Assembly (NCBI GenBank): GCA_947643415.1
Contig: CANRWA010000004.1
Location: 1 to 64,000 of the forward strand
DNA length: 64,000 bases
Source of the DNA: an uncultured Clostridia bacterium
GTDB taxonomy: Bacteria > Bacillota > Clostridia > Lachnospirales > Lachnospiraceae
Reading direction: 5' to 3'
The translations under genes were made by a program, and so were the position numbers. Under the pieces are notes generated by a model. It did not search any database and had not been told where the DNA came from. It worked only from the letters and a program-made list of their open reading frames with translations. Shown here in pieces: positions 12,298 through 64,000 of the stretch; the first letter of the stretch is position 1, and the number at the start of each line of letters is the position of its first letter.

Positions 12298-13361
12298 ATT
12301 TGGATCAACAGGAAAGACAGCTGTTTAGTAAGGAAATGGATGAATTACAGGTGCGAAGAAAGGCGGCTGACCGGAACCAATATGGACCGCTAATAGAAAA
12401 AGCAAACGAACTGTTACAAAAATGTCTGGCAGATGAAGTGGAGATGGACAGAGGAGATGCTTCTCTCTCTGAACTTTATTATTTGACAGCGGAATTATTA
12501 TTTGCCAGTGACCTGGCAGCCAGGGCTGTTACACATGTAAGAAGCCTTGGGCATGAAACAGAGATTGAGGAATATTATAATAAGGCAATTGAGCTCCAGG
12601 ATAAAGAAGAATATTCTTATGCGCTCTGGAACTTCCTATCTACAGCGGACCGCAGGGAAGAGGGCATTGCCGCGCTGGAACGTTTTATCCAGCGCACGGG
12701 CGGTACTGCCAAAGTGCTTGCGAGGGCAGCAGAATATATTCTGATGTATGCAGATTCAGAAGACAGCATAACAATTCAGAGATCACTTGATTATTTTTAC
12801 CAGGCCATTGAAAAAGAGCCTGACCGATATGAGACATACTGGTCTTTCTGGACCGATTTGGAGGAGGCAGTGGATGTGTGCCCCCGCCTGTTTAAAGAAT
12901 CAGTATTGTGCCTGGAGAAACTGATTGAACTTTCTCTGCCAGAGGATTCTGAAAACCATGATACCCTGGGGAACCGTTATCTGGATCTGGCTGTCACATA
13001 TAATAAAATGAAAGAATACGAAAAGGCATATGAAGCAGCAAAAAAAGGCCTGGCTGTCTGTGGTGATTCCGATTATGGAATTAAGCTGATGATGGATATA
13101 TTGAATAACAGGATTTCTGCTTTAAGTAATAATCCCGACCATGATAAAATCCGTGCTGGATTGTACTTTGAACTTGCACATTGCTATCATATTACAAACC
13201 AGCCGGAATTAGCAGGAAAGTATTATCTTGCTATGGATAAGGCGCGTGATCTGGTTCCTCCCCAGTATAAAGATGAATTTATTCTATATTATAAAGCTGC
13301 GGATCAGTCACTTTGGGGAAAAATAAAAAGATGGTTGAGAGCATTATTAAAAATGCGATAG
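12294..13361 (+). CDS. TPR-repeat cytoplasmic protein in the Bce-type operon
   Basis: A 355-residue soluble protein, charged and helical, with no signal peptide or membrane segment. TPR-like helix pairs are visible in the C-terminal half: LGNRYLDLAVTYNKMKEYEKAYEAAKKGL and LYFELAHCYHITNQPELAGKYYLAMDKA; the central part (YYNKAIELQDKEEYSYALWNFLSTA) is similar. The start overlaps the kinase stop (ATGA). Standard BceRS-BceAB loci do not carry such a gene, so it may be a scaffold or modulator linking kinase and transporter (inference). It might also be an unrelated gene captured into the operon. No catalytic motif was seen. Confidence 0.8.
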   Translation: MNLDQQERQLFSKEMDELQVRRKAADRNQYGPLIEKANELLQKCLADEVEMDRGDASLSELYYLTAELLFASDLAARAVTHVRSLGHETEIEEYYNKAIELQDKEEYSYALWNFLSTADRREEGIAALERFIQRTGGTAKVLARAAEYILMYADSEDSITIQRSLDYFYQAIEKEPDRYETYWSFWTDLEEAVDVCPRLFKESVLCLEKLIELSLPEDSENHDTLGNRYLDLAVTYNKMKEYEKAYEAAKKGLAVCGDSDYGIKLMMDILNNRISALSNNPDHDKIRAGLYFELAHCYHITNQPELAGKYYLAMDKARDLVPPQYKDEFILYYKAADQSLWGKIKRWLRALLKMR

Positions 13362-13390
13362 GGAAAGAGATGAAATTATCTTTCCCAACC

Positions 13391-13404
13391 TTACAAAACT
13401 GTAA
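13391..13404 (+). promoter_or_regulatory. BceR-type operator upstream of the ABC transporter
   Basis: TTACA-AAAC-TGTAA matches exactly the TNACA-N4-TGTAA inverted repeat described for BceR-like regulators. It lies about 30 bases before a weak -35 (TGGAAT, 13435), with TACAAT (13458-13463) 17 bases further on. That is the expected arrangement for activation of a bceAB-type operon by its own regulator. Confidence 0.75.
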
Positions 13405-13434
13405 CAATTCAGAGAGAAATGTAAGCCAATTCAA

Positions 13435-13463
13435 TGGAATACATTTCTTTTTTTCGCTACAAT
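13435..13463 (+). promoter_or_regulatory. Regulated promoter of the bceAB-like genes
   Basis: TGGAAT-N17-TACAAT: a good -10 with a poor -35, consistent with dependence on an activator bound at the operator just upstream. Confidence 0.5.
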
Positions 13464-13515
13464 AAATACGAAGAATTCTTTGAAGCGGTAAAACATGTGT
13501 GAATGGAGGGAAAGT

Positions 13516-14280
13516 ATGAGTATATTAGAGGTTAATTCATTAAAAAAAGTATACACCACCCGTTTCGGTTCGAATCAGGTCACAGCTCTTCGCAATGTAA
13601 ATTTTTCTGTGGAAGAGGGAGAATATGTGGCGATCATGGGAGAGTCGGGATCAGGAAAAACTACACTGCTCAATATTCTTGCAGCACTGGATCAGCCAAC
13701 AGGTGGTTCTGTATTATTAAATGGGGAAGAACTCACTCAGCTTCCAGAACGGAAGCTTGCCGAATTCCGCAGGAATAATCTGGGATTTGTGTTTCAGGAC
13801 TTTAATCTTCTGGATACCTTTACGCTGGAAGATAATATCTATCTTCCCCTGGTGCTTGCGGGTGAGTCTTATCAGGAGATGAAAACAAAGCTTATGCCCA
13901 TTGCACAGATGCTTGGAATCCAGGATCTATTGCAGAAATATCCCTATGAGGTATCTGGTGGGCAGAAACAGAGGGCAGCGGTTGCCAGGGCACTGATCAC
14001 CGATCCGCATCTTATTCTGGCGGATGAGCCGACAGGCGCTCTCGATTCCCGTGCTTCCGACGAACTTCTGCGCCTTTTTGCACAGGTGAACCAGTCAGGA
14101 CAGACAATTCTGATGGTGACACACTCGACTGCGGCAGCAAGCCGGGCGAACCGTGTCCTCTTTATCAAGGATGGTGAGGTGTTTCATCAGATCTACCGCA
14201 TGAATGACAGCGATGAGACATTATACCAGAAGATAGCAGATACACTGACAATTCTTATGACAGGTGGTGATGGCAGATGA
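13516..14280 (+). CDS. BceA-type ABC transporter ATP-binding protein
   Basis: The 254-residue ATPase powers a Bce-type transporter that removes cell-wall-active peptides from their lipid targets. Walker A is GESGSGKTT (about residue 39), the Q-loop is FVFQDFNLLD, the signature is VSGGQKQR, Walker B is LILADEPTGALDS and the switch His is in VTHS. The start at 13516 (MSILEVNSL) is preceded by GGAGGGAAAG; the in-frame ATG at 13495 is upstream of that site. The stop overlaps the permease start (ATGA). Its own regulated promoter separates it from the upstream regulator genes. Confidence 0.93.
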   Translation: MSILEVNSLKKVYTTRFGSNQVTALRNVNFSVEEGEYVAIMGESGSGKTTLLNILAALDQPTGGSVLLNGEELTQLPERKLAEFRRNNLGFVFQDFNLLDTFTLEDNIYLPLVLAGESYQEMKTKLMPIAQMLGIQDLLQKYPYEVSGGQKQRAAVARALITDPHLILADEPTGALDSRASDELLRLFAQVNQSGQTILMVTHSTAAASRANRVLFIKDGEVFHQIYRMNDSDETLYQKIADTLTILMTGGDGR

Positions 14281-48198: not shown

Positions 48199-49476
48199 AT
48201 GCTCCTGCTTGTGGGCGGATTTTTTGACATTCTTTTTATCTTTCTGGCGGTCAATTATATCTGTGCTGAAAGGTATCGGTTCCGTCTTTATGATCTGGTG
48301 TTTTTTGTGGTTATCTTGATTATTCCTGAACTTATAAATTCCGGCTTAATAGAAAATCCCTATATGATCCTGGGCTATGTGCTGCTTGGAATCTATGTGA
48401 AAGTGAAATTCCATCTGGGATTGTGGGAATTTATTGTGGACTTTACGATTCTTTTTGCCTATATGGTGGCCACCCAGTTATTTTTCTCGGTCCCCATATA
48501 TTTTCTGAATGATCCGGATCTGGTGGAGATTATGGCACCGGTCGTAAATATCTGTTCCTGTCTTATTACAGTTTATATGGGAAGGAAGCATCTCTTGTGG
48601 AAGCTATCGGGTTTTATGAACCGGAATGGCTGGGTGACAAGAGGCATCCTGATCTGTTGTGGCATGGGAATATTTTACCTGGTCGTGGTGGTCAAATTTA
48701 CCTATTCTCTCCGCATCATGGACCACATTATTTTTGGAGCATGGACAGTACTGATCTGTTTCCTGGCAGTGATGTGGCAGAAGAGCAGGAATGAGGTTGA
48801 GGCAAAGGACCGGGAGATGGAGCTGCAGAAGACATATGAAGATGTCTATCAGAATCTGGTACAGTCCATCCGAAGAAGGCAGCATGAATTTGATAACCAT
48901 ATTATGGCATTGTGCGGGATATACAAAACAGTAGATACAATAGAAGAACTGATCCAACAGCAGAGCCTGTACTGCGAAGATATTGCCAGAGACAACCATT
49001 ATAATAAATTATTGTCTGCCAGTTCCCCTGTATTTATTGGTTTTCTCTATTCGAAATTTACCTTGGCAGAAGAAAAGGGATGCGAGGTAGATTACAGCGT
49101 CAATATAGCGGAAAGTGACAGTCCGGTCATTCCCGAATACTATATTGTGGAGATCTTAGGGATTCTTCTGGACAATGCACTGGAAGCATTGGAAGAAGCA
49201 GATTCCAGGAAAATTTATGTAGAGGTGCTGGGAACAGGGGAGGATCTGAGGATTACAGTAAAGAATATATCCAGTTACATCCCCCAGTCACAGATAGCGA
49301 ATTTTACGAGACATGGCTTTAGCACCAAAGGAAAAGGACGGGGAATCGGCTTGTACTCCCTCAGGGTGATCGTAGACAAATTTGGAGGTAAGCTGGCGAT
49401 ATATAATGAGAAAAGAGGGGAAGAGAACTGGCTCGTGTTTAATATCGAGATAACGGACAAGGCAGCATCCAAGTGA
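48199..49476 (+). CDS. AgrC-like GHKL sensor histidine kinase, copy 1
   Basis: The 425-residue kinase has six N-terminal membrane helices (about residues 1-200), a coiled-coil (EVEAKDREMELQKTYEDVYQNLVQ), the H-box RRRQHEFDNHIMAL and a GHKL ATPase domain (EILGILLDNALEALEEA, KGRGIGLYSLRVIVDKFGGKL). This is the AgrC-type organisation used for cyclic-peptide pheromones. GGGAGGGATCGG precedes the ATG. It is almost identical to the kinase at 50411. A LytTR regulator and a pheromone-like peptide gene lie 2.4-3.2 kb away. Confidence 0.9.
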   Translation: MLLLVGGFFDILFIFLAVNYICAERYRFRLYDLVFFVVILIIPELINSGLIENPYMILGYVLLGIYVKVKFHLGLWEFIVDFTILFAYMVATQLFFSVPIYFLNDPDLVEIMAPVVNICSCLITVYMGRKHLLWKLSGFMNRNGWVTRGILICCGMGIFYLVVVVKFTYSLRIMDHIIFGAWTVLICFLAVMWQKSRNEVEAKDREMELQKTYEDVYQNLVQSIRRRQHEFDNHIMALCGIYKTVDTIEELIQQQSLYCEDIARDNHYNKLLSASSPVFIGFLYSKFTLAEEKGCEVDYSVNIAESDSPVIPEYYIVEILGILLDNALEALEEADSRKIYVEVLGTGEDLRITVKNISSYIPQSQIANFTRHGFSTKGKGRGIGLYSLRVIVDKFGGKLAIYNEKRGEENWLVFNIEITDKAASK

Positions 49477-50049: not shown

Positions 50050-50410
50050 TAACTTTCTCTCTTTCTTTTTTACAAATATTCACCGCCCTTGTTGGATTGT
50101 GTGATACAATCTTTAAAGGGAAAAGAAATAACCGCCAATTACCACAAATAGTTGACGGCTGTCCATTCGGGTAGTTACTCAATGTTTGAGGATAGACTTT
50201 TTTATGGTTTCCCTCTTTTGTAATTACAATATAACATATAATGTAATGTATATCAAGTGTCAGAATCTGCTCTTGAGGGAAAACCTCAGGAGAATCCCAA
50301 TCAGATTTTTGAATATAATTTAGCTATATATAGTATGAAAAATAGTTGATATGATATATGATGGATATTCTGGATTCCATGAAATAGATAATTGGAGGAA
50401 TAAGAGTATT
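50050..50410. other. Intergenic region with TA operator and relic of a deleted XRE gene
   Basis: No gene over 360 bases. It holds GATTGTGTGATACAATC (50095-50111), a second inverted repeat ATTACA...TGTAAT (50223-50247), and, at 50335-50358, a 24-base copy of the sequence upstream of the XRE gene (47771-47794). Directly after that comes a copy of the last codons of that XRE gene (50362-50380), so the gene body has been lost here. Confidence 0.75.
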
Positions 50411-51688
50411 ATGTTCTTGCTTATAAGAGGATTTTTTGACATTCTTTTTATCTTTCTGGCGGTCAATTATATCTGTGCTGAAAGGTATCGGTTCCGTCTT
50501 TATGATCTGGTGTTTTTTGTGGTTATCTTGATTATTCCTGAACTTATAAATTCCGGCTTAATAGAAAATCCCTATATGATCCTGGGCTATGTGCTGCTTG
50601 GAATCTATGTGAAAGTGAAATTCCATCTGGGATTGTGGGAATTTATTGTGGACTTTACGATTCTTTTTGCCTATATGGTGGCCACCCAGTTATTTTTCTC
50701 GGTCCCCATATATTTTCTGAATGATCCGGATCTGGTGGAGATTATGGCACCGGTCGTAAATATCTGTTCCTGTCTTATTACAGTTTATATGGGAAGGAAG
50801 CATCTCTTGTGGAAGCTATCGGGTTTTATGAACCGGAATGGCTGGGTGACAAGAGGCATCCTGATCTGTTGTGGCATGGGAATATTTTACCTGGTCGTGG
50901 TGGTCAAATTTACCTATTCTCTCCGCATCATGGACCACATTATTTTTGGAGCATGGACAGTACTGATCTGTTTCCTGGCAGTGATGTGGCAGAAGAGCAG
51001 GAATGAGGTTGAGGCAAAGGACCGGGAGATGGAGCTGCAGAAGACATATGAAGATGTCTATCAGAATCTGGTACAGTCCATCCGAAGAAGGCAGCATGAA
51101 TTTGATAACCATATTATGGCATTGTGCGGGATATACAAAACAGTAGATACAATAGAAGAACTGATCCAACAGCAGAGCCTGTACTGCGAAGATATTGCCA
51201 GAGACAACCATTATAATAAATTATTGTCTGCCAGTTCCCCTGTATTTATTGGTTTTCTCTATTCGAAATTTACCTTGGCAGAAGAAAAGGGATGCGAGGT
51301 AGATTACAGCGTCAATATAGCGGAAAGTGACAGTCCGGTCATTCCCGAATACTATATTGTGGAGATCTTAGGGATTCTTCTGGACAATGCACTGGAAGCA
51401 TTGGAAGAAGCAGATTCCAGGAAAATTTATGTAGAGGTGCTGGGAACAGGGGAGGATCTGAGGATTACAGTAAAGAATATATCCAGTTACATCCCCCAGT
51501 CACAGATAGCGAATTTTACGAGACATGGCTTTAGCACCAAAGGAAAAGGACGGGGAATCGGCTTGTATTCCCTCAGGGTGATCGTAGACAAATTTGGTGG
51601 TAAGCTGGCGATATATAATGAGAAAAGAGGGGAAGAGAACTGGCTCGTGCTTAATATCGAGATAACGGACAAGGCAGCGTCCAAGTAA
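50411..51688 (+). CDS. AgrC-like GHKL sensor histidine kinase, copy 2
   Basis: The 425-residue product is the same length as copy 1 and nearly identical, starting MFLLIRGFF where copy 1 has MLLLVGGFF. The ATG at 50411 is chosen because it matches copy 1 and follows GGAGGAATAAGAG; an earlier in-frame codon at 50351 lies in the relic of the deleted XRE gene. All kinase motifs (HEFDNHIMAL, DNALEALEEA, GRGIGLYS) are kept. Nucleotide differences cluster at both ends, while the middle 1.2 kb is almost unchanged, indicating recent duplication or gene conversion. It is the copy next to the pheromone-like gene. Confidence 0.9.
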   Translation: MFLLIRGFFDILFIFLAVNYICAERYRFRLYDLVFFVVILIIPELINSGLIENPYMILGYVLLGIYVKVKFHLGLWEFIVDFTILFAYMVATQLFFSVPIYFLNDPDLVEIMAPVVNICSCLITVYMGRKHLLWKLSGFMNRNGWVTRGILICCGMGIFYLVVVVKFTYSLRIMDHIIFGAWTVLICFLAVMWQKSRNEVEAKDREMELQKTYEDVYQNLVQSIRRRQHEFDNHIMALCGIYKTVDTIEELIQQQSLYCEDIARDNHYNKLLSASSPVFIGFLYSKFTLAEEKGCEVDYSVNIAESDSPVIPEYYIVEILGILLDNALEALEEADSRKIYVEVLGTGEDLRITVKNISSYIPQSQIANFTRHGFSTKGKGRGIGLYSLRVIVDKFGGKLAIYNEKRGEENWLVLNIEITDKAASK

Positions 51689-51997: not shown

Positions 51998-52723
51998 ATG
52001 ACAAAAGTACTGATTATAGAAGATAGATGGGAGTCAAGAGAGGTGCTGAGCCGGATGGTGAAAGAAATTGACGCCAGCGCGGATGTGTACGCAGTAGACA
52101 ATGAGGATGCGGCATATGCTATTGCCATGAAGAAGACAATCGATGTATTTTTAGTTGATATTATACTTCATCCGGAGAAGCCGGGAGACCAGTCAGGCGC
52201 TGTTTTTGTCATGAATATAAGGAATATTGAAAAATATCTGTTCACTCCGGTTATTTTTATTACTGCATTGTATGATACGAAAATGTGTATGTTCAGCACC
52301 GTTCAGTGTTATGGATTTATTGAGAAACCATTTGATATGGATGAAACAAGAAACTTAATTGAAACAGCCATGCGCTACCATACAACAGAGATACGTGAAA
52401 AAAATTTTATTTTTTATTTAGAGGGACTGATTGGTACTGTCCCAGTCAAAGATATCATTTACATACAGAGCCAAAGGCATAAATTACATATATATACCAC
52501 GGAAGAGGAAATAGTACTTCCATACAGGACATGTAAGAAGGTGCTGGAAGAAATTGATTCTGATGATTTTGAGATGTGCAGCAGGGGAACGATCGTTAAT
52601 ATGTCTTATATTGAGCAGATTGATTCACCCGACCGCTATCTCTATCTAAAGGGTGTGGAGGAAGCCATTGAAATTGGTTCGTCCATGAAGAAAAAATTTA
52701 TGGAAAGGTTTTTAAACAGATAA
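51998..52723 (+). CDS. LytTR-family response regulator (AgrA-like)
   Basis: The 241-residue regulator has a receiver domain (VLIIEDRWESREV; phospho-acceptor Asp in VFLVDIILHPEKPGDQ; Lys in IEKPFDMDE) and a C-terminal LytTR DNA-binding domain (VKDIIYIQSQRHKLHIYTTEEEIVLPYRTCKKVLEEID and FEMCSRGTIVNMSYIEQID). This is the partner type of GHKL kinases. AAAGAGAGGACAG precedes the ATG. It is divergent from the AgrD-like gene and lies between the kinases and the biosynthetic cluster, so it is a candidate activator of either. Confidence 0.9.
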   Translation: MTKVLIIEDRWESREVLSRMVKEIDASADVYAVDNEDAAYAIAMKKTIDVFLVDIILHPEKPGDQSGAVFVMNIRNIEKYLFTPVIFITALYDTKMCMFSTVQCYGFIEKPFDMDETRNLIETAMRYHTTEIREKNFIFYLEGLIGTVPVKDIIYIQSQRHKLHIYTTEEEIVLPYRTCKKVLEEIDSDDFEMCSRGTIVNMSYIEQIDSPDRYLYLKGVEEAIEIGSSMKKKFMERFLNR

Positions 52724-53449: not shown

Positions 53450-54223
53450 ATGTTTACAATTGTTGCATGTATGAAATACATAAATTCGAGATTGCTTTCG
53501 GGAGATGTACAATTAGAAGGCGGTTACGTTATCAATCCATATGATCTATTTATGTTGGAGCAACTGCTAAAATTCAAAAAAAATACATCTTGTCGTATTG
53601 TTGGTCTGACAATGGGACCATTGGCTTGTGTTGAGGTTATTCAGAGATGTATTGCTTATGGATTAGATGATATCTTTCTGGTCTGTGATAAGACCTTTTC
53701 TGGGTCGGATACATATGCTACATCCTACATTTTAACAGAGGCTTTGAAATATATTGGTCGGGCAGATATATATGCATTTGGAGAAAAGGCAACAGATGGA
53801 GAAACTGGGCAGGTTTCGATAGAAGTTGCCAGTCGCTTAGATTTGCTTTGCGTAATGGGAGTGCACAAATTTTGGATGAATAGTGCAAATGAGATACTTT
53901 TGGAACGCAAGTTTGCAGATAGATTAGAAGAGTTGATTCTTCCTATACCTTGTGCCCTTGGTTTTCGAGGATTTACCGTTAAAGAACCACAAATAAATTT
54001 ACTAAAAATAAAAAAAGCCAGGAATTATACTCCTAATGTATTGACAGCAGAGACTCTTAAAGTCAAGAGTTATTATTGTGGAAATTTAGGCTCAAAAACT
54101 GCAGTAAAAGAAACTGAATTCATTATTACAAAAAGAAATAATGAGGTTATAGAGGGAACATCTAAGAATAAAGCGGACATATTAAAGAAGTTGATTTCAG
54201 GATTTGGAAAGGAAAAAACATGA
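53450..54223 (+). CDS. etfB: Electron transfer flavoprotein beta subunit
   Basis: The 257-residue protein matches EtfB/FixA: N-terminal VACMKYINS, VINPYDLFMLEQLLKFK, GADxx-like segment GLDDIFLVCDKTFSGSDTYATSYIL, DIYAFGEKATDGETGQVSIEVASRLD (the AMP/FAD-contact motif) and PCALGFRGFTVKEPQINLLKIKKAR. ETF carries electrons between acyl-CoA dehydrogenase-type flavoenzymes and other partners. Its stop overlaps the acyl carrier protein start. Being separated from etfA by an ACP and a glycosyltransferase is unusual and ties the ETF to this biosynthetic cluster. Confidence 0.9.
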   Translation: MFTIVACMKYINSRLLSGDVQLEGGYVINPYDLFMLEQLLKFKKNTSCRIVGLTMGPLACVEVIQRCIAYGLDDIFLVCDKTFSGSDTYATSYILTEALKYIGRADIYAFGEKATDGETGQVSIEVASRLDLLCVMGVHKFWMNSANEILLERKFADRLEELILPIPCALGFRGFTVKEPQINLLKIKKARNYTPNVLTAETLKVKSYYCGNLGSKTAVKETEFIITKRNNEVIEGTSKNKADILKKLISGFGKEKT

Positions 54224-54465
54224 ATAAAGAAGAAGTATATAGTAAAGTAGAAGAATTGTTGCAGGAAATAACAAAGGATCAAGAGAAAAGACCAATGTTA
54301 GTTGACACTTCGATGAATAGCCTGGGGCTGGATTCTATCGCAATTATTCATTTTGTCATTTCTCTTGAAGAACAATTTGGTATCGAACTTGAGGATGAGG
54401 ATCTTTTATCCGAAAATTATGAATCTATTGAGCGAATTGTTCAAATGCTAGATAAATATATTTAG
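54220..54465 (+). CDS. Stand-alone acyl carrier protein
   Basis: An 81-residue ACP with the phosphopantetheine site in SLGLDSIAIIHFVISLEEQFGIEL (Ser 42 region of the DSxx motif) and the acidic helix III area. It overlaps etfB by 4 bases (ATGA). Discrete ACPs in NRPS/PKS clusters often carry special extender units (hydroxy-, methoxy- or aminomalonyl) or acyl starters. The Sfp-type transferase at 56.8 kb would activate it. Confidence 0.9.
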   Translation: MNKEEVYSKVEELLQEITKDQEKRPMLVDTSMNSLGLDSIAIIHFVISLEEQFGIELEDEDLLSENYESIERIVQMLDKYI

Positions 54466-54584
54466 TTTTAAGTATTATTGTTATTTAGATTTGTCAATTT
54501 CAATCAATATACATTACTATGCAAGGAGAAGAAGGGCGGGAGAATTTTTTTACTTTGGAAGCATGTGCGAGAATGGAGGAAAAT

Positions 54585-55526
54585 ATGAGATTAACTATTT
54601 CTGTTATAATATACAATGTAGAAGAGTATTTAGATAGTTGTTTAGAAAGCATTAAACAACAAATCACAAATGATGTTCAAATTCTATTAATAGATGATGG
54701 ATCTACCGATTATAGTGGAATTATTGCTAATCATTATGCGGAAATGGATGAGAGATTTAAAGTAATTCATAAAGAAAATGGAGGACCAGGTTCTGCGAGA
54801 AATACGGCTATAGATAATGCAATAGGTGACTACATATGGTTTGTGGACGGAGATGATATTATAGCTGAAAATTCTGTGCATAAGCTATTATTATATTTAA
54901 ATGAAGAACAGATATTACCAGAAATTTTAATTTGCGATTATTTTTCGTTTGATAAAGATGAAATTAAATTAGAAGCCATGGATAATATAATGCCTAATAA
55001 GGGGGAATGCTTGAATGGAAGCCAATGCGCATTCCTATGGGGAAATAGTCTTTTTGGAGCTGTATGGCATTGTTTGTTTCAACGCCAATTTATTTTAAAT
55101 ACACATCAGAGATTTGATGAAGATTTATACTGCAATGAGGATGAGGATTGGTTTATTTCTGTTTTGACCTATGCTAAGTCAATCTCCATTTTTAATGAGC
55201 CTATTTACAAATACAGAAAGGCCAGAGCAGGATCAATTCTGCATGATTCTAATTGTTTTAAGAGGTTTATAAGCAGATATAATGTGTATACAAGGTGGTT
55301 TGATTATTTTATTAATCTTCAAATTCAAAATGAGAGTACGAGACACATGATTGCATATTTTTCTGAATCGTATTTAGGTTTGGCTAGAGATATAAGTGTT
55401 TTAGATATTCAGGAGAAAAGAAAGGCAATAAAAATTTATAAAAAAAGGTTGGATATTTCTTCTAACGAATTATGCTGTTCGTCGGATTACAAATTCATGT
55501 GGTGGTCAGCAACTGACATAATATAA
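54585..55526 (+). CDS. Family 2 glycosyltransferase
   Basis: The 313-residue GT-A enzyme has TISVIIYNVEEYLDSCLESIKQQ, LLIDDGSTDYSG (nucleotide-sugar binding), ENGGPGSARNTAID and WFVDGDD (metal-binding DxD). The ATG at 54585 follows TGGAGGAAAAT; an in-frame codon at 54519 lacks a site. The C-terminal third (YKYRKARAGSI, SRYNVYTRWFDYFINLQ) resembles enzymes acting on surface polysaccharides. In this cluster it may add a sugar to the product or be a passenger. Confidence 0.88.
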   Translation: MRLTISVIIYNVEEYLDSCLESIKQQITNDVQILLIDDGSTDYSGIIANHYAEMDERFKVIHKENGGPGSARNTAIDNAIGDYIWFVDGDDIIAENSVHKLLLYLNEEQILPEILICDYFSFDKDEIKLEAMDNIMPNKGECLNGSQCAFLWGNSLFGAVWHCLFQRQFILNTHQRFDEDLYCNEDEDWFISVLTYAKSISIFNEPIYKYRKARAGSILHDSNCFKRFISRYNVYTRWFDYFINLQIQNESTRHMIAYFSESYLGLARDISVLDIQEKRKAIKIYKKRLDISSNELCCSSDYKFMWWSATDII

Positions 55527-55690
55527 AGCATATTTTAAATTATCTAATAATTGAAAGGAGTGTATATTGAAAAATATACATAATGTGTCATGAAATAATA
55601 AGTGCCATTTGTTATGCCAGTTGTTTCAAGTGTAGTCAAATGAGGCAATTGATTATTATGATTTTTATTATAATTTGCGGAGGAGAGCAA

Positions 55691-56665
55691 GTGAAAACTG
55701 TGATATGGGTTGTGTGCTTTGAAACTCCAAATAAATTAGGAGATTATTGTAAACAAATACTTTATAAGGCGAGCAAACTAATTACTAAGAATGATGTTAC
55801 GGTTTCTGCAGTATGTATTGGAGATTATGAACCAGGCAAATTACAAGCGTTGTCTAAGTATGGTGCTGATAAAGTGATCTTTTCCCAAGAGGTTTGCTCT
55901 AATTATAGACAGGTTGCTTCTATTTTGTTTCATATGTATCAAAGTGAAAACGATAGCCCTAATCTTATTATGTTTCTGGCATCAGAATGGGGAAAATGTA
56001 TTGCTGCAGATTTGGCAGTTAGAGTTGGAGCTGGTTTAATTGCAGAATGTATAGATATTAAGGCACAAAAAGAAAATAATAAATATAAATTTATTTTTAC
56101 AAGATCGGCAGTTGCTTCAACTGTTTTAGCACAAATATATTGTAAAAATACGAAGCTTAGCATGTGTACATGTAAAAAAAATGTTTTTATGGGGATTGAT
56201 GCATATCCTTTCAAACATATATCTGTTCAGAGTTGGTATGGCAACTACAGAGAGAAAACTCAACCATGGCGTATAATAAAATCGGAGTTGCAAGTATATG
56301 AAAGTACTAATGTTGAGTTAGAGACGGCAAGGCTTGTTTTTGGCATTGGCCGAGGGGTATGTAATAAAAATGATTTAATAGAGATCAGACAGGCTGCTGG
56401 AAAATATAACGCTGCTATAGTTTGTACAAGGGCTATTGTAGAAGAAGGAATTCTTGAGAAAGAACGGCAGGTGGGGCAGTCTGGTATCAGTATATCTCCG
56501 GAAATGTATATAGCAATTGGTATTTCTGGGGCAGTACAGCATATGGTTGGGATAAAAAAGGTAAAGAAAATTATTGCCATAAATACGGATGAAAGTGCCC
56601 CCATCTTTTCATATGCTGATTATTGTATTATAGATGACTATAAAAATATAATTAGAGAACTATAA
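55691..56665 (+). CDS. etfA: Electron transfer flavoprotein alpha subunit
   Basis: The 324-residue EtfA/FixB protein has an N-terminal ETF domain (VIWVVCFETPNKLGDYC, KYGADKVIF) and the C-terminal FAD domain, with VFGIGRGVCNKNDL, GQSGISISPEMYIAIGISGAVQHMVG and AINTDESAPIFSYADY. I choose GTG at 55691: GCGGAGGAGAGCAA stands just upstream and the product then begins at the family start, while the ATG at 55583 would add 36 residues of unrelated sequence. It is the partner of EtfB at 53450. An acyl-CoA dehydrogenase donor would be expected nearby, perhaps beyond the window. Confidence 0.9.
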   Translation: MKTVIWVVCFETPNKLGDYCKQILYKASKLITKNDVTVSAVCIGDYEPGKLQALSKYGADKVIFSQEVCSNYRQVASILFHMYQSENDSPNLIMFLASEWGKCIAADLAVRVGAGLIAECIDIKAQKENNKYKFIFTRSAVASTVLAQIYCKNTKLSMCTCKKNVFMGIDAYPFKHISVQSWYGNYREKTQPWRIIKSELQVYESTNVELETARLVFGIGRGVCNKNDLIEIRQAAGKYNAAIVCTRAIVEEGILEKERQVGQSGISISPEMYIAIGISGAVQHMVGIKKVKKIIAINTDESAPIFSYADYCIIDDYKNIIREL

Positions 56666-56759
56666 GTTAAAGCTGGTTTCTTGTTAACTGCCTTAATATA
56701 CTCGAAACTTTAGGAACATAATATGTATGAACAATATGTAATAGAAAATGGTGCTTTTT

Positions 56760-57458
56760 ATGGTTGAAGTATATTCGTTGAAATGTGATGATGAAATTAA
56801 TAAAGAACAATATGATTTTTTACTTTCTTTAATATCACATCAGAGATTGGAACAAATAAAAAAGTTTCATTTTGTTGAGGATGCCAAAAGAACTTTATTT
56901 GGAGAAGCAATGATAAGATACTTAGCATGTAGTCGTATGAATCTGCAGAATGAAAATATATGTTTCGGAAAAAACCAATATGGGAAACCGTTTTTGTATA
57001 ATAAACCTCGATTTTTCTTTAATGTTTCACATTCTGCAAATTGGGTGGTTTGCGCAATTAGCACTAAAGAAGTGGGAGTTGATATTGAGAAATTAAAACC
57101 AATTGATATGAAAATTGCAAAACGGTTTTTTGATAAAAGAGAGTATCATTATATAATGAGTGCTGCAGATTTCGCGACACAGGTTGAGTGCTTTTACGAT
57201 ATATGGACATTAAAAGAAAGTTATGTCAAATATATAGGTAAAGGACTGCACATACCTTTAAACTCATTTTGTGTATATAAAGAAGAACAGGATTATAAAT
57301 TATTATCTAATAGGCTAGGGAATAGACAGGATATATGTTTTTCAAAGTTTGATTTTAATAATAATTATAAATTGTCAGTATGTTCAGGAAAAATTAGGCA
57401 TAATAAAATTATTAATCAAATTAAACTTGTGGATATAGTAGGCAGATTGTGTAAATAA
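56760..57458 (+). CDS. Sfp-type 4'-phosphopantetheinyl transferase
   Basis: The 232-residue enzyme moves phosphopantetheine from CoA to the serine of carrier proteins. Sfp-type motifs are clear: FGKNQYGKPFL, FNVSHSANWVVCAIS, EVGVDIEKLKP (metal-binding D-x-E) and YDIWTLKESYVKYIGKGL. The ATG at 56760 is preferred over GTG at 56748 as it begins MVEVYSLKC, though neither has a good ribosome site. It would activate the stand-alone ACP and the PCP domain of the NRPS. Confidence 0.92.
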   Translation: MVEVYSLKCDDEINKEQYDFLLSLISHQRLEQIKKFHFVEDAKRTLFGEAMIRYLACSRMNLQNENICFGKNQYGKPFLYNKPRFFFNVSHSANWVVCAISTKEVGVDIEKLKPIDMKIAKRFFDKREYHYIMSAADFATQVECFYDIWTLKESYVKYIGKGLHIPLNSFCVYKEEQDYKLLSNRLGNRQDICFSKFDFNNNYKLSVCSGKIRHNKIINQIKLVDIVGRLCK

Positions 57459-57493
57459 GCAATTATAAATAATACATATGAGGTGTTCTGTTT

Positions 57494-60400
57494 ATGTCAT
57501 ACAAATTTTTTTCACTATCACAACCACAACAACGTATTTTTCTAACTCAAAATATATATCCCTTTTCATCTTTATATAATATTGGAGGTTCAGTCTTAAT
57601 AAATGGATATGTTGATACGAGTATACTGCAACAGGCTATTAAAATGTTTATTCATGAGAATGATTCATTTCAAATTCGTTTAGTGTATAAGGGACATATT
57701 CCTATGCAGTTTTTTTGCATGGAGGAGTCCAATGTGGATTTCTTAGATTTTAGCAGAATCAATGGAGAAGCAGAAAAACATTATAGAAAATGGGAGGCTA
57801 GACAGGCTCGAACTCCATTTGAAATGATGAATGAACCTTTATATCAGTTTGCTGTCATAAAGATAAGTGATCATTTATATGGCTATTTTGTAAAGCTGCA
57901 TCATATAATTGCTGACGGGTGGTCTATTCAATTGTTGACAAAAAGAATTCATGAAAATTACATGGAACTAAAATATGGTACAATAGTGGATAAGGAGAGT
58001 AACTGTCAATATAAGAACTATCTTGTTGACGAACAGAAATATTTAGCATCGGCTAGTTACGATAAGGATAAGCAATACTGGTTGAACTTGCTTAAAAACG
58101 TTGATTGCAATAGCAATAACATGGATTGTTTTATAGATGGAATCAGGACTACATTTTTTTTAACAGGAGATGTAGTTGTGTTGGTTCGATCCTTGTGTAA
58201 AGCATATAATATTTCTTTGAACATTTTTTTTATTAGTATATATTCTTTGTATACATATAAGAAGCGTGGATTAAAAAAATTTATAATAGGAATACCTGTT
58301 TTGGGTCGAAAAGGAAAAATGCAGCATAGTATTTTTGGAATGATGGTTAATACTGTGCCGTTGCTGATTCAGATTGAACCATCACAGTCATTTATAGAGT
58401 TGGCACGCAACATAAATAAGAGTTTTTATGACTGCTACAAACATCAAAGGTATCCATACAATCATATGGTTCGAGGGAAAGGTTGGCAAGTTCAATCTTT
58501 ATACAATGAATGTATGAATTATTATGGAACTAAATTAGATCAGACGTTTGATGGTTTTCCGGTTACAAATACAGAGTTTTATAATGGGCAGCAATCATAT
58601 ATGTTTCAAATGATAGTCAGAGAATGGCAGGGAGAGGAGAAGGTTCAGTTGGATATTGATGCAGCGAATAGTGTATATAGCCAATTGCAGATTAATGATT
58701 TGATTAGTGAATTTATAGAACTTGTTAATTGCTTTGCTGCTGACCCAACAAAGTGTGTTAATATGTTAGGAAGAAGTATAGAGGAAGAATTATCTTCGAA
58801 AGTAAAAAAAGGTTATAATGACACAAAAAGAAAGCTGGAGACAGAGATAACAATAGTTGATTTGTTTGAAAGGGCTGTTAAACGGTATGCGGACTGTGTT
58901 GCGGTAGAGTGTGAAGGTGAAACTTTTACATATGCACAATTTCATGAAAAAATATTGAAATTTTGCGCCCTTTTGGCTGAAAGGGGTATCAAATCAGGAA
59001 GTATAATTGGGGTTATAGCAACACATTCTGTTGATATGCTGACTGCTATATGGGGAATATTGGCTTATGGATGTGTCATTTTACCGATAGATCCTAAAAC
59101 TCCAGTTACAAGACAAAGATATTTATTGGAGAATGTTTCCGCAAAAATACTTTTTTCAAACATTCCAGATTTAGATATACCGGGTTTTGGTGGAGCTATT
59201 TATGCTATTCAGGACATTGAAATGGCTCGGTTAGGTGAAATAAATAGGCGGAGCAATCCTGAAAGGCTTGCATATATCATGTATACATCAGGATCGACTG
59301 GACAACCAAAAGGTGTACAAGTATCACATAAGAATCTATTAAATTATATTTGTTGGGCAAAAAAACAATATGTAGTAGGGAATAATAATCAGGAGGCAGA
59401 AGTATTTCCGTTATTTACCTCCATTTCGTTTGATCTTACCGTAACGACATTGTTTACACCATTAATCAGTGGGAGCAAAATAATTATTTATCCGGAATAT
59501 GATAACGAATGTTCATTGTTTCGTATTTTGAATGAAAACCGATGTACAGTTGTTAAATTAACACCATCGCATTTGTCTTTAATTCGAGACCGAATAGGGC
59601 TAAACTCTTCAATTCGCCGGTTTATTGTTGGAGGAGAAGCATTACAAACTTCTTTGGCCGGCAATATTTATAGAAACTGGGGAGGAAAAATAGAAATTAT
59701 TAATGAGTATGGACCGACAGAAGCGACAGTTGGCTGTATGAGTCATAGATTTGACTTCCATAAAGATGTATTTGATTCTGTTCCTATTGGAAAGCCAATC
59801 TGGAATACAAAAATTTATATTTTAGATAAAGATATGCAGGAAGTTCCCATAGGTAAAACAGGAGAAATATATATAGCTGGTGATTGTGTTACGCAAGGAT
59901 ATGTGAACTGTCCCGAATTAACAGATAAAAGATTTATATTTCATGATATGGAAGAAGGCAGAGAACAGCTATATCGGACTGGTGATAGAGCTAAATTTTT
60001 AGATCATGATACGATGCTTTATTGTGGTCGTTTAGATTCTCAAGTAAAAATACAGGGACATAGGATCGAATTGCAGGAGATAGAGTCGGAAATATTAAAA
60101 AATTCTGCTGTTGATGAGGTTCATGTAATGGCGTTGGATAATTTTAGCGGAGTAAAACAATTATGTGGGTATTATACTTCTGTAAAAGGCCTTCGTCAGG
60201 AAGAATTACGATTGTTTTTACAGGAAAATGTACAACAATATATGATACCAACCTGGCTTATACATATGAATAACTTCCCGCTAAGTAATAATGGAAAGTT
60301 AGATTCGGATTTATTGCCTAAACCGCAGAGTGGTATTTCCTCGAAAGATTATGACCATTCTCCTTTACTGGATATAAGTGCAAAGATATTAGGCGTTGAT

Positions 60401-61867
60401 GGAATTGTTTTAGATGACGATTTTTACAGTTTGGGGGGTAGTTCTATTTCTGCTATACAGATATCATCCAAATTACGAGAAAATAAGCTTTTATTGTCAG
60501 TGAAGTCAATTTTAGAAAATCCAGTTTTCAGGGATATGGAGACTTGCATAGAAAGACAGGAAGATACATTATTCGATCAGGGTCTATGTTCTGGGGAAAT
60601 CGAACCAACACCAATAGTAAAATGGTTTTTTGCGCAACCTTTCAAAAATTTAAATACTTACTATCAAGAGTTGCAGTTAATGTTAACCCGGCCGATTGAT
60701 ATCGTTACATTAGAAAAAGCTTTGACAGCTATTGTTAGATATCATGATATACTCAGAGTTAACGTAAGGGAGGATAGGCGATTATTTTATAATAATGAAC
60801 ATCTAAAAAGACAGGTTAAAATAGAAGAAATAGGATGTGAAGAACGGACAAGAGAAGCTTTTGAACATATTATTGAGAAAAGTAAACAGAAGTTATTAAG
60901 TGAAATGAACATAACTTCAGGACTTTTGGTGCGTTCCTGCTTAGTGAGTATGGGAGAAGTAAAGGTATGGTGTATATTAATACATCATTTAGTTGTGGAT
61001 GGAATCTCATTAAGAGTGCTGCTTGATGATATTACAACAAGCTTGCGGTGTTTATTGCAAGGGCAGGATGTTAAATTACCAATGAAAACATTATCCTACA
61101 AAGCATATGCAGAGGATTTTAAGAAGGGAGATGATAGGAATTGTTCAAAACGTGTTCCTGCTATCCAGAACGCAGTACGTGAAGAACAACAAAATGCAAT
61201 TTTGGAGTTGGATCAAGAAACTACACAGATTCTTCTTCAAGATGCAAATCGACGATATTCTACAAAACCTGTGGAACTGTTGCTGGCAGGATTATTATAT
61301 ACATTATATGAAAATGTACAGAATCAATGGGAACTTCAATTAGAAGGTCATGGACGTGATAATGATAAGTATAATATTTCCAGAACAGTAGGATGGTTTA
61401 CTTATCTGGCGTCAAAGAACATTAATCATATTCCTGATAATATGGAGGAACTTATTATATATGCCAAAGAAACCTACCGAAGTATGATAAATACTGCTAA
61501 TGAACATAGTTCAGAGATGTTTAATAGATCCAGAGGGGAGAGATCCATCCGATTTAATTATATGGGAGATTTTAGGACAAAGTATGATTTTTTTATAGTC
61601 GAACCAGTCTTTTCGTTACAGAATGAATTGCTTGAAACAATGGAACTAGATATGGTAGTTGTGAACCGAAAAATTATGATGTGCTTACGTATGCGCAATA
61701 GCATACTTTGTGGTGTTAAGGAAGCAGATGATTTTCTTGCAAAATACAAGCAAAATATTGAGAATATAGTAGGATTTTGTTGTCAGACAGGTGAGAGACA
61801 TTTTTCACCATCTGATTTTGGACTTGCGCATATTTCTCAGATAGAACTAGATCATCTTTTTGTATAA
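57494..61867 (+). CDS. NRPS module C-A(Asn)-PCP-E
   Basis: The 1457-residue synthetase has four domains. C, residues about 1-430: SLSQPQQRIFLTQ and HHIIADG (about 135-141). A, about 440-960: YTSGSTGQPKG (about 597), SFDLTVT, EYGPTEATVG, GRLDSQVKIQGHRIE and NGKLDSDL. PCP: FYSLGGSSISAIQ (Ser about 982). E, about 1036-1457: PIVKWFF, HHLVVDGIS (about 1164), EGHGRDND, SRTVGWFT and FNYMGDF. Aligned on the GrsA positions I read the code D-L-T-K-I-G-E-V-G-K, against DLTKLGEVGK for Asn. It should acylate Asn through the leading C domain and epimerise it to D-Asn. It has no thioesterase, so the chain passes to an enzyme outside the window. Confidence 0.92.
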   Translation: MSYKFFSLSQPQQRIFLTQNIYPFSSLYNIGGSVLINGYVDTSILQQAIKMFIHENDSFQIRLVYKGHIPMQFFCMEESNVDFLDFSRINGEAEKHYRKWEARQARTPFEMMNEPLYQFAVIKISDHLYGYFVKLHHIIADGWSIQLLTKRIHENYMELKYGTIVDKESNCQYKNYLVDEQKYLASASYDKDKQYWLNLLKNVDCNSNNMDCFIDGIRTTFFLTGDVVVLVRSLCKAYNISLNIFFISIYSLYTYKKRGLKKFIIGIPVLGRKGKMQHSIFGMMVNTVPLLIQIEPSQSFIELARNINKSFYDCYKHQRYPYNHMVRGKGWQVQSLYNECMNYYGTKLDQTFDGFPVTNTEFYNGQQSYMFQMIVREWQGEEKVQLDIDAANSVYSQLQINDLISEFIELVNCFAADPTKCVNMLGRSIEEELSSKVKKGYNDTKRKLETEITIVDLFERAVKRYADCVAVECEGETFTYAQFHEKILKFCALLAERGIKSGSIIGVIATHSVDMLTAIWGILAYGCVILPIDPKTPVTRQRYLLENVSAKILFSNIPDLDIPGFGGAIYAIQDIEMARLGEINRRSNPERLAYIMYTSGSTGQPKGVQVSHKNLLNYICWAKKQYVVGNNNQEAEVFPLFTSISFDLTVTTLFTPLISGSKIIIYPEYDNECSLFRILNENRCTVVKLTPSHLSLIRDRIGLNSSIRRFIVGGEALQTSLAGNIYRNWGGKIEIINEYGPTEATVGCMSHRFDFHKDVFDSVPIGKPIWNTKIYILDKDMQEVPIGKTGEIYIAGDCVTQGYVNCPELTDKRFIFHDMEEGREQLYRTGDRAKFLDHDTMLYCGRLDSQVKIQGHRIELQEIESEILKNSAVDEVHVMALDNFSGVKQLCGYYTSVKGLRQEELRLFLQENVQQYMIPTWLIHMNNFPLSNNGKLDSDLLPKPQSGISSKDYDHSPLLDISAKILGVDGIVLDDDFYSLGGSSISAIQISSKLRENKLLLSVKSILENPVFRDMETCIERQEDTLFDQGLCSGEIEPTPIVKWFFAQPFKNLNTYYQELQLMLTRPIDIVTLEKALTAIVRYHDILRVNVREDRRLFYNNEHLKRQVKIEEIGCEERTREAFEHIIEKSKQKLLSEMNITSGLLVRSCLVSMGEVKVWCILIHHLVVDGISLRVLLDDITTSLRCLLQGQDVKLPMKTLSYKAYAEDFKKGDDRNCSKRVPAIQNAVREEQQNAILELDQETTQILLQDANRRYSTKPVELLLAGLLYTLYENVQNQWELQLEGHGRDNDKYNISRTVGWFTYLASKNINHIPDNMEELIIYAKETYRSMINTANEHSSEMFNRSRGERSIRFNYMGDFRTKYDFFIVEPVFSLQNELLETMELDMVVVNRKIMMCLRMRNSILCGVKEADDFLAKYKQNIENIVGFCCQTGERHFSPSDFGLAHISQIELDHLFV

Positions 61868-61939
61868 GATTAAATTTAACAGGCTGCAATTTAATCGGAC
61901 ATGTCCAAAATTATTAGATACTTTTTTGGAGGGATTTGT

Positions 61940-62782
61940 ATGGATATAATTGGTGTTGTTGGAGCCGGTACCATGGGGAAAGGAATAGCATTAGCTTTAC
62001 TGCTTTCGGGACATGGTGTAACGGTAATAGAGAACAACAAGCTAAAAAGGATGAAATTTATTCAGGAGATAGAGAAAGAATATAGAATTTTAAGTATGAT
62101 GAATGCTGACAAATATTTAGAGTGGGATCAAATTGAGAATAAAATACAGATATCGGAAGACTTGGAACTTTTAAGGAATTCTTCAATTATTATAGAATGC
62201 ATCAATGAAGATATCAATAGAAAAAAGGAACTTTTTGAGAGGTTAGATCAAATTGCTGATAAACAGTGTATCTTTTATTCGAATACATCATGCATTAGTA
62301 TTACGATGCTGGCTTCGTATACACAGCGTCCGGAAAAGGTAATTGGAACACACTTTATGAATCCAGTTAATCAAATCCATAGTGTGGAAGTTATAAAAGG
62401 CATTCATACATCAGCAGAGACAATAGAAAGAACTCAGCATCTATTAGAAGTAATGGGGAAACAGGCAATCATTATTAATGACATGGCAGGTTTTGTTTCT
62501 AATCGAATATCACATCTCATGATGAATGAGGCAGCTTTTATTTTACAGGATAGAATTGCGGATGCAGCAACTATAGATGAAATATTTAAAAAGTGTTATG
62601 GGCATAAGATGGGGCCTTTAGAAACGGCTGATTTGATTGGAATAGATACAGTAGTAGATTCGCTTAACGTATTATATGAATTTTATCAGGACTTCAAGTA
62701 TAGGTGCTGTCCGCTTTTAAAACAAATGGTCGCATCAGGATATTGTGGGAAGAAGACAGGAAAAGGTTTTTATATATATTAA
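61940..62782 (+). CDS. 3-Hydroxyacyl-CoA dehydrogenase family enzyme
   Basis: The 280-residue NAD(P)-dependent enzyme has the Rossmann motif IGVVGAGTMGKGIALALLLSGH, IIIECINEDINRKKELFERLDQI, FYSNTSCISITMLASYTQRPEKVIGTHFMNPV (catalytic His) and GFVSNRISHLMMNEAAFIL, and ends with GKKTGKGFYIY. The start at 61940 follows GGAGGGATTTG. Relatives in natural-product clusters (FkbK, ClbD, ZmaI-type) oxidise ACP-bound hydroxyacyl groups on the way to hydroxy- or aminomalonyl-ACP. With the ACP and ETF genes here, that role is likely but inferred. Confidence 0.9.
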   Translation: MDIIGVVGAGTMGKGIALALLLSGHGVTVIENNKLKRMKFIQEIEKEYRILSMMNADKYLEWDQIENKIQISEDLELLRNSSIIIECINEDINRKKELFERLDQIADKQCIFYSNTSCISITMLASYTQRPEKVIGTHFMNPVNQIHSVEVIKGIHTSAETIERTQHLLEVMGKQAIIINDMAGFVSNRISHLMMNEAAFILQDRIADAATIDEIFKKCYGHKMGPLETADLIGIDTVVDSLNVLYEFYQDFKYRCCPLLKQMVASGYCGKKTGKGFYIY

Positions 62783-62856
62783 GAACAAAAAAACAAACAT
62801 GATTAAAAAATTTTGTAATTGTACTATACGAAATAAATACATTGAATGGGGAAAAA

Positions 62857-63780
62857 ATGAGACAGAGATTATATGTTCACTTATATGTGACAACAAAATG
62901 TAATTTAGCATGTAAGCATTGTTATTCAGCTTATTCAGAAAAAAGCACAAAAGAATTATCTGTTGAGCAAATTGTTTTTTTGATTCGTTGGTTAGAAAGA
63001 AAGTATGATGCATTTTTTGATGTTGAGGGTGGAGAAATTTTTCTTCGGCAAGATATTAATAGAATTCTATCTATGCTGACAGAATCAGAACGTCAGAAAA
63101 TCACAATAACTACAAATGGAACTATATTACCTAAAGTAGATCCACTTTATTTGAGGCAACTGGACGAATTCCGTGTATCAGTTGAGGGTCATACCACAGA
63201 GCTTCAAGAAAACATTCGTGGTGTTGCGCTTATGCCAATAATGAAGAATTGTGAAGAATGGTTAAAGCAAAATATTCCTGTTGAAATTCGCATGACAATT
63301 CATAAAAAGAATTACCAATATCTTCAGGAAGCCTGTCAATATTTTATTCGACTTGGCTTTCAACGTTTTAGTTTTTATGAGTTTCAGGCTGTTGGCAGGG
63401 GGAAGGATTTTGCGGAAGAATATATCTTAGATGCAGGAGCCTTTGAAGTAGTGTTAAAGCAACTTTCCAGTCTTGCCCAAACGAGACCTGTGGTTGACTG
63501 GATTAAGCTTAATATTACAAATCAGCGTAGAGATTTACTAGAGAAAAATCAAAACCAGTTGGAAAACACCAAATTTGAGATATTGGATGTATGCGATATA
63601 CCAACACTTACGATAAGCAGTGCTGGAAAGCTTGGAACATGTCCTTGGAATGTGTCAGATCAGACTATAGATATAACTAATCTTAAAGAATTTGAAGATA
63701 AAGTTGATGAGATAGTTGACTTACAAGGCGGCAGACATGCTTGTGATCATTGTAGTTCGTTTAGGATACTTTATAAATGA
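62857..63780 (+). CDS. Radical SAM enzyme
   Basis: The 307-residue enzyme binds a [4Fe-4S] cluster through CNLACKHC (CxxxCxxC, about residues 15-22), with VEGGEIFLRQDI (the GGE motif for SAM) and ITTNGT. C-terminal cysteines (VCDIPTL, GTCPWN, CDHCSSF) suggest a SPASM-like auxiliary cluster in reduced form. The ATG at 62857 is preceded by ATGGGGA. SPASM-type proteins usually modify peptides; here it could tailor a carrier-bound amino acid or another substrate. Confidence 0.88.
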   Translation: MRQRLYVHLYVTTKCNLACKHCYSAYSEKSTKELSVEQIVFLIRWLERKYDAFFDVEGGEIFLRQDINRILSMLTESERQKITITTNGTILPKVDPLYLRQLDEFRVSVEGHTTELQENIRGVALMPIMKNCEEWLKQNIPVEIRMTIHKKNYQYLQEACQYFIRLGFQRFSFYEFQAVGRGKDFAEEYILDAGAFEVVLKQLSSLAQTRPVVDWIKLNITNQRRDLLEKNQNQLENTKFEILDVCDIPTLTISSAGKLGTCPWNVSDQTIDITNLKEFEDKVDEIVDLQGGRHACDHCSSFRILYK

Positions 63781-63798
63781 AAGAGAGGGGGGATCTCT

Positions 63799-64000
63799 TT
63801 GGCATTAAAATTTGACAACAAATTTCATTTTGTTAAAACGCCAGTTTTACAATGTAGAAAATTTGCGAAAAACAATAATGTATTTGTAAAATTAGAAGGC
63901 AAAAATATAAATAATAGTGTTAAATGCCGTTCAGCATATTTTATGATACAGGATTTAGTTACTAATTATTCTGTGTCAAATATCGTTGAGTCTTCAAGTG
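63799..64000 (+). CDS. Start of a cysteine-synthase/SbnA-like PLP enzyme, cut by the window
   Basis: The frame from TTG at 63799, just after GAGAGGGGGG, runs open to the end of the window. It gives FHFVKTPVLQCRK, VFVKLEGKNINNSVKCRSAYFMIQ (PLP lysine in SVKCR) and IVESSS. This is the N-terminus of a fold-type II PLP enzyme. SbnA-type members make the diaminopropionate precursor from O-phosphoserine, while others make cysteine; the visible part cannot decide. The usual N-P-x-G-S-x-K-D-R is changed to I-N-N-S-V-K-C-R. Confidence 0.75.
   Translation, partial: MALKFDNKFHFVKTPVLQCRKFAKNNNVFVKLEGKNINNSVKCRSAYFMIQDLVTNYSVSNIVESSS

Follow-up and report, generated by a model that had tools for sequence, protein, structure and literature searches.

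A predicted N-acyl-D-asparagine capping module with a ClbP-like peptidase-exporter fusion in a gene cluster of an uncultured Lachnospiraceae bacterium

The closest described relatives of the gene cluster analysed here are those for zwittermicin A and colibactin. For zwittermicin A, we take ZmaO to be the D-asparagine (D-Asn) capping module, and colibactin follows the same cap logic with ClbN and ClbP. The zwittermicin peptidase ZmaM carries a fused ATP-binding cassette (ABC) half-transporter, whereas the colibactin peptidase ClbP stops at the three-helix part and transport falls to a separate protein, ClbM (PMC9889268). Homologous peptidases are described for the edeine, amicoumacin, paenilamicin and xenocoumacin clusters, and the EdeA and PamJ homologues are, with ZmaM, among the longer ones (PMC9889268). 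The present cluster begins in a 64,000-nucleotide stretch (the window) of an uncultured Clostridia bacterium of the Lachnospiraceae (assembly GCA_947643415.1, contig CANRWA010000004.1), and its nonribosomal peptide synthetase (NRPS) gene at 57494-61867 is the subject of this analysis. Window positions equal contig positions 1-64000; the contig (107,321 nucleotides) extends to the right of the window. The assembly, called G000 below, comprises 4.6 Mb in 230 contigs (94.64% complete, 3.54% contamination). The protein is very probably the initiation module of an N-acyl-D-Asn prodrug line of the zwittermicin and colibactin kind. This reading is based on the genes, their order, the domain types, the conserved residues and an association repeated in six clusters, from which we infer the substrate, stereochemistry, acyl group, cleavage and export.

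Pfam matches of the protein comprise Condensation in two stretches (E = 3e-97 for the whole protein), AMP-binding (1.9e-71) and PP-binding (6.6e-08), which, with the unbroken reading frame, bears out the order condensation (C), adenylation (A), peptidyl carrier (PCP) and epimerisation (E) domain in one protein that the original prediction had read from the sequence. Ten specificity residues located by motif are identical to those it had reported (D-L-T-K-I-G-E-V-G-K), and the register of the nine core code positions matches an alignment to tyrocidine synthetase 1. This code, which we take to be one change from the textbook Asn code, supports a predicted activation of Asn by the A domain. The E domain had been called complete, and HHLVVDG, EGHGRD and RTVGWFT are all present. 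The carrier motif is GGSS in this module and GGDS in five related ones, the attachment serine being retained. The reported lack of a thioesterase is correct for the NRPS protein and for the window part of the cluster; a separate gene further downstream encodes a type II thioesterase joined to a carrier domain.

The same prediction proposed a search to the right of the window for a ClbP- or ZmaM-like peptidase, an exporter and more NRPS or polyketide synthase (PKS) modules, and all of these are present. The peptidase lies about 2.9 kb downstream of the module within a fusion protein of 1045 residues. In a PDB sequence search with this fusion, 7mdc, 7ul6 and 7mde lead (E = 4e-68 to 2e-67; query residues 46-509, through the three-helix part), followed by chains named 'ClbP peptidase' (4e6x, 3o3v/4e6w) at 4e-60. 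The three leading entries are titled 'Beta-lactamase' in the PDB copy used; 7MDE and 7UL6 are ClbP structures (PMC9889268). The remainder of the fusion matches cyclic-peptide exporters (TIGR01194, 287.5 bits against a cut-off of 286.2), and its length and position beside NRPS genes fit the ZmaM-like layout of ~1,100 residues with an ABC half-transporter. Aligned to ClbP, residues E92, S95, K98, Y186, S188, H257, N331, P451, W460 and W466 correspond to E98, S101, K104, Y203, T205, N275, N346, P466, W475 and W481 of the fusion. S95, K98 and Y186 are catalytic in ClbP (PMC9889268), and the SxxK and Tyr catalytic set is retained as S101, K104 and Y203. Prodrug-activating peptidases strictly keep N331, W460 and W466 (271 aligned), and have Ser or Thr at position 188 and His or Asn at 257 (PMC9889268); the fusion agrees with N346, T205 and N275, and with E98 at the position of E92. 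The predicted reaction of this peptidase is cleavage of an N-acyl-D-Asn cap.

A profile of the fused protein (threshold 1e-60), run against a family sample of 397 genomes in 334 genera, matched 12 genomes at 13 loci, five of them fused (G000, G621, G765 and twice in G796) and eight encoding stand-alone peptidases. Two genomes matched at 1e-60 in a relatives sample of 61, the own genome included; the other, G024, belongs to the same genus. Beyond the own cluster there are five further ones in four other genomes (G024, G621, G765, G796a and G796b). A single-protein C-A-PCP-E module with an Asn-type code was found at every fused peptidase-ABC locus followed up (6/6), no more than 0.4 kb from the peptidase in G621, G796a and G796b, 2.9 kb in G000 and about 30 kb in G024 and G765, where other NRPS/PKS genes lie nearer the peptidase. 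The code is DLTKIGEVGK in G000, G024, G796a and G765, and DFTKIGEIGK in G621 and G796b. Because the six modules are only 31-39% identical pairwise, apart from G621/G796b at 65%, the Asn-type code is kept far beyond background. No NRPS match was found at any of the eight stand-alone loci, in stretches that reach 18-19 kb to either side in five and are shorter, at one end or at both, in G494, G800 and G751. Trp occupies position 460 in all six NRPS-linked fused relatives versus four of the eight stand-alone peptidases, and position 466 in all of both sets. Among 398 genomes of a phylum sample, searched at the stricter E ≤ 1e-100, the own genome was the one match; two plasmid records matched at 1e-60, in the ABC part alone, and none covered 80% of the query. 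A wider contig search by two short peptide patterns, in which misses are likely, gave 20 loci, among them the G024 record and the Acidobacteria and Aminicenantes contigs described below.

Three observations concern peptidases outside these module pairs. Stand-alone ClbP-like membrane peptidases with a full D-Asn pocket and no NRPS in the fetched stretch are found in G494, G805, G634, G772, G480, G800 and G538. In G024, a second S12-peptidase-related gene (L046:9499-10632) adjoins the peptidase-ABC gene, its product being 27% identical to the peptidase of the window cluster. Fused ClbP-ABC homologues from Acidobacteria (L024) and Aminicenantes (L025), on contigs of 7-9 kb from metagenome-assembled genomes, are 34-36% identical over nearly the whole protein.

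The capping module of each cluster is called M1 below (Cs-A-PCP-E, Cs being a starter C domain). The best solved match of the M1 C domain of 57494-61867 is RzmA-Cs (3e-35), a starter C domain represented by the entries 7C1H and 7C1K (PMC7804268). RzmA-Cs is the top match for all three of the six M1 C domains tried, namely those of the own cluster, G024 (9.5e-26) and G621 (1.9e-26). The stand-alone C domain of the own cluster is nearest TycB (4.5e-46), whose first C domain we take to be of the D-accepting (DCL) type, and RzmA-Cs is absent from its matches at 1e-5; the corresponding domain of G024 is nearest McyB, then TycB. For the C domain that follows the ketosynthase-ketoreductase-acyl carrier protein (KS-KR-ACP) unit, the nearest matches are TycC and LgrA. 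In a tree of 28 domains (22 C and 6 E) from the six clusters, built without C matches shorter than about 280 residues or weaker than 1e-5 and with three E domains included on the basis of their coordinates, the M1 C domains (six, 100/100), the second C domains (five, 100/100) and the E domains (six, 100/100) form separate groups; a further ten C domains cluster at 99/99, and one of G024 (108994) stands alone. No second C domain was found in the fetched part of G796b. Assignment of the second C domains as putatively D-accepting, of the M1 C domains as starter and of the others as elongation domains leans on the solved matches, the tree containing no labelled DCL reference. The suggestion that the C domain is of starter type agrees with its nearest solved match, which differs from those of the two other C domains of the cluster, and with its tree group; the protein was also proposed as the first module of the line, and no other C-domain protein precedes it in its gene row.

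Several observations weigh against a prodrug line. The fusion has Ser in place of P468, and His, Phe and another residue in place of D381, D387 and K235, the loop alignment around D381 and D387 being unsure. P468, D381 and D387 are described as highly, not strictly, conserved (PMC9889268), and position 468 is Pro in two of the six NRPS-linked fused relatives. Seven of the eight stand-alone peptidases, with no NRPS found nearby, retain E92, S95, K98, Y186, T188 and N331; the pocket residues are therefore not sufficient for calling a prodrug peptidase and were rejected as a marker. The stand-alone control spans at most 18-19 kb a side, yet in G024 and G765 some 30 kb separate the module from the peptidase. 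The starter-type margin is small in G024 (RzmA-Cs 9.5e-26 versus BacC 2.9e-24). In a reverse search, a profile of five modules matched 23 of the 397 family genomes at 1e-170, and of 24 A domains read from 20 fetched loci, six have an Asn-type code and an E motif or lie in known modules (loci L109, L110, L111 and L113 being known modules). G555 (L112) encodes a synthetase of 3775 residues with two Asn-type A domains, one of them with an E motif; in G543 (L117), one Asn-type A domain was read and an E motif was not found. Neither genome gave a peptidase match at 1e-60. An Asn code with an E domain is thus not enough as a marker, being present in G555 without a peptidase match; the distinctive pair is the separate starter module and the fused peptidase.

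Both the same-pocket S12 relatives within the family and the G555 module would suit a usual acyl-D-Asn lipopeptide from which the cap is never removed, with the S12 peptidase acting in resistance or recycling. This is very unlikely, as the peptidase is fused to an exporter, in the same way as described for ZmaM, and accompanies the module at all six fused loci. The G+C content is 33.0% at 53450-64000 and 34.2-34.5% in the downstream cluster stretches, against 44.5% at window positions 1-48000 and 40.2% to the right of the cluster, as in an acquired island, and a transposase-like gene recognised by eye borders its right edge. That a horizontally transferred island has decayed or fallen silent and no longer works is, however, highly improbable: the assembly-line genes are open and have Pfam domain matches, the core motifs of the first module are intact, and the genes in the window part are closely packed (from a 4-nt overlap to 82-nt gaps). 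An internal module downstream of another NRPS protein, with the C domain acting in elongation, would fit the placement of this domain in the general C family with HHIIADG and the lack of a preceding loading domain, but is extremely unlikely against the starter C domain as best solved match, the separate tree group of the M1 C domains and the first place among C-domain proteins in the gene row. The reading as a prodrug module is well supported. Two of the three refuting outcomes named in the original prediction were tested and did not arise: the peptidase, the exporter, further NRPS proteins and a PKS module were found, and the C domain is closest to a starter C domain. On the third, activation of an amino acid other than Asn, the recurrence of the Asn-type code in six modules favours Asn.

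In the prodrug line proposed here, the A and PCP domains would load Asn, the starter C domain would acylate this carrier-bound Asn from a fatty acyl thioester, and the E domain would convert it to D-Asn. The stand-alone C domain, of putative D-accepting type, would hand N-acyl-D-Asn to the A-PCP, KS-KR-ACP-C and A-PCP-C line. A C3 unit could be provided by FkbH, the dehydrogenases and the electron transfer flavoprotein (ETF), an extender chemistry assumed by analogy with zwittermicin; the 3-hydroxyacyl-CoA dehydrogenase encoded next to the module probably supplies the extender unit. The ABC half-transporter part of the membrane protein would export the masked product, and its outward-facing S12 peptidase domain would remove the acyl-D-Asn cap and free the active part. 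Such export and unmasking would agree with zwittermicin, for which inhibition of ZmaM leads to accumulation of species with the mass of prezwittermicin (PMC9889270).

The cluster also contains a second UvrA gene. Besides the cluster copy (1112 bits), the genome encodes a normal UvrA on contig C32 (1468 bits); the two proteins are 44% identical. G024 likewise has a UvrA of the normal kind, another outside the cluster with a weaker match (682.8 bits, below the cut-off), and a cluster copy encoded between the genes for the peptidase-ABC fusion and the stand-alone C domain. The cluster UvrAs of G000 and G024 share 39% identity, compared with 44% and 43% between each and the housekeeping UvrA of its own genome; as five housekeeping copies are 73-85% alike, the two cluster proteins do not look like one inherited gene. 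UvrA was rejected as a general mark of these clusters, being found in the fetched stretches of two of six (G000 and G024) and not in those of G621, G765, G796a and G796b, some of which were probably fetched in part. UvrA-like proteins in the clusters of DNA-binding drugs (DrrC, Ecm16) are self-resistance factors without a UvrB-binding domain (PMC10413001). By this mark, the cluster UvrA of G000 does not fit the type, as it retains the interaction domain (PF17760, E = 1.4e-20); in that of G024, where 85 of 126 residues of the region are present, PF17760 was not matched at 1e-4. A second divergent UvrA in two clusters is a hint of a possible DNA-acting product. It is conceivable, though rather unlikely, that the clusters represent a gut-associated Clostridia lineage of D-Asn-masked, DNA-acting hybrid peptide-polyketides, separate from colibactin, in which two same-genus clusters each recruited a different divergent UvrA into the gene row of the capping module and the unmasking exporter.

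Set beside zwittermicin by gene description, the present cluster has two U32 proteins, radical S-adenosylmethionine (SAM) proteins, ETF subunits, a second UvrA and an A domain with a WbuX-like insert; to our knowledge, zwittermicin has none of these. Its FkbH, acyl-CoA and 3-hydroxyacyl-CoA dehydrogenases, carriers, free acyltransferase (AT), SbnA-like protein and carbamoyltransferase presumably recall the zwittermicin extender and diaminopropionate (Dap) genes. Likeness to colibactin lies in the ClbP catalytic domain, pocket and three-helix part. The products and hosts of edeine, amicoumacin, paenilamicin and xenocoumacin differ from those of this cluster. The type of system is known, and the cluster members are new as far as the literature searched: titles and abstract openings held no account of such clusters in Lachnospiraceae or Clostridia, most subscription papers lying outside the search. 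The published network of 271 peptidases may include some members; the main text of that paper has no mention of Lachno- or Clostridi- (PMC9889268). According to PMC9889270, organisms of the human gut microbiota had no annotated ClbP homologs beyond the pks cluster.

The gut origin given in the original prediction holds in an indirect way, since the same-genus genome G024 matches a record (CAJTFB010000001.1, MGBC000156.1) of the Mouse Gastrointestinal Bacteria Catalogue, part of which is a deposited collection of cultured isolates (PMC8763404). Capping module and apparent unmasking exporter occur together in a genome whose congener has this mouse gut match, and three more genomes of the family share the pair. 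Should the listed mouse isolate be in culture, the published ClbP inhibitor strategy could directly expose masked precursors. A meaningful UvrA link would bear on whether this mask also serves DNA-acting metabolites of gut bacteria beyond pks+ Enterobacteriaceae. The features are collected in the table, in which the left edge of the cluster, at 53450, is a presumed one.

Table. Features of the capping module and of the surrounding gene cluster (positions on the contig, identical to window positions up to 64000).
Feature	Position	Strand	Remarks
ETF-domain protein, beta-like by position	53450..54223	+	first gene assigned to the cluster
Acyl carrier protein	54220..54465	+	
Family 2 glycosyltransferase	54519..55526	+	
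ETF alpha subunit	55583..56665	+	
Sfp/AASDHPPT-type phosphopantetheinyl transferase	56748..57458	+	35 nt 5' of the NRPS gene
Predicted NRPS loading/capping module Cs-A(Asn)-PCP-E, 1457 aa	57494..61867	+	ATG start, single unbroken open reading frame; Pfam
Starter-type condensation domain, HHIIADG intact	57506..58762	+	own-genome domain scan, solved match, tree
Adenylation domain, code DLTKIGEVGK	58841..60328	+	ends placed by eye around Pfam match
Peptidyl carrier domain, GGSSI	60365..60550	+	Pfam
Epimerisation domain, HHLVVDG, EGHGRD, RTVGWFT	60623..61864	+	Pfam match (Condensation-family copy) 60623-61534
3-Hydroxyacyl-CoA dehydrogenase family	61901..62782	+	
Radical SAM protein	62842..63780	+	TTG start, unsure
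CysK/SbnA-type pyridoxal phosphate (PLP) enzyme	63799-64806	+	crosses window end at 64000
S12 peptidase-ABC half-exporter fusion, 1045 aa	64775-67912	+	
Type II thioesterase fused to carrier domain	67928-68869	+	
Free malonyl-type AT	68871-70082	+	
Stand-alone C domain	70054-71502	+	
U32, radical SAM, carbamoyltransferase, second U32, PIG-L deacetylase, 277-aa protein, glycosyltransferase	between 71502 and 79632	+	in this order
A-PCP	79632-82040	+	
KS-KR-ACP-C	82096-87024	+	
Asparagine synthase-like	87042-88898	+	
A-PCP-C with inserted domain	88927-93027	+	then BtrH-like and nucleotidyltransferase-like genes
UvrA	94946-97849	+	then carrier protein and AMP-ligase genes
FkbH	99674-100702	+	
Acyl-CoA dehydrogenase	100828-101955	+	
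Transposase-like open reading frame (by eye)	102731-103573	-	borders right edge of low-G+C cluster

Some of the accessory genes have features of their own. The two U32 proteins (L008:8471-9628 and 12631-13749) flank the radical SAM and carbamoyltransferase genes, and a similar pair lies beside the stand-alone C domain gene in the G621 cluster; by analogy with UbiU/UbiV, the pair might serve an oxygen-free hydroxylation. In the A-PCP-C protein, a domain of the WbuX-like/N-acetyl sugar amidotransferase type (TIGR03573, E = 4.3e-29, below the curated cut-off) interrupts the A domain at residues 448-778, and the code of this A domain reads DPRHMALLAK. As a guess, the inserted domain could place an amidine or thioamide on the carrier-bound unit. 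The 277-aa protein (L008:14637-15470) had no Pfam match. When four cluster proteins were scanned against a defence library, two gave no match, the 277-aa protein a single weak one (pVip, 2.1e-08), and UvrA nine of ATPase type (best mad3, E = 1.8e-82). Upstream of the cluster, two near-identical AgrC-like genes, recognised by eye, lie at 48199-49476 and 50351-51688 (98% over 300 nt, 2212 nt apart), followed at 51998 by a LytTR-type regulator-like gene, likewise recognised by eye.

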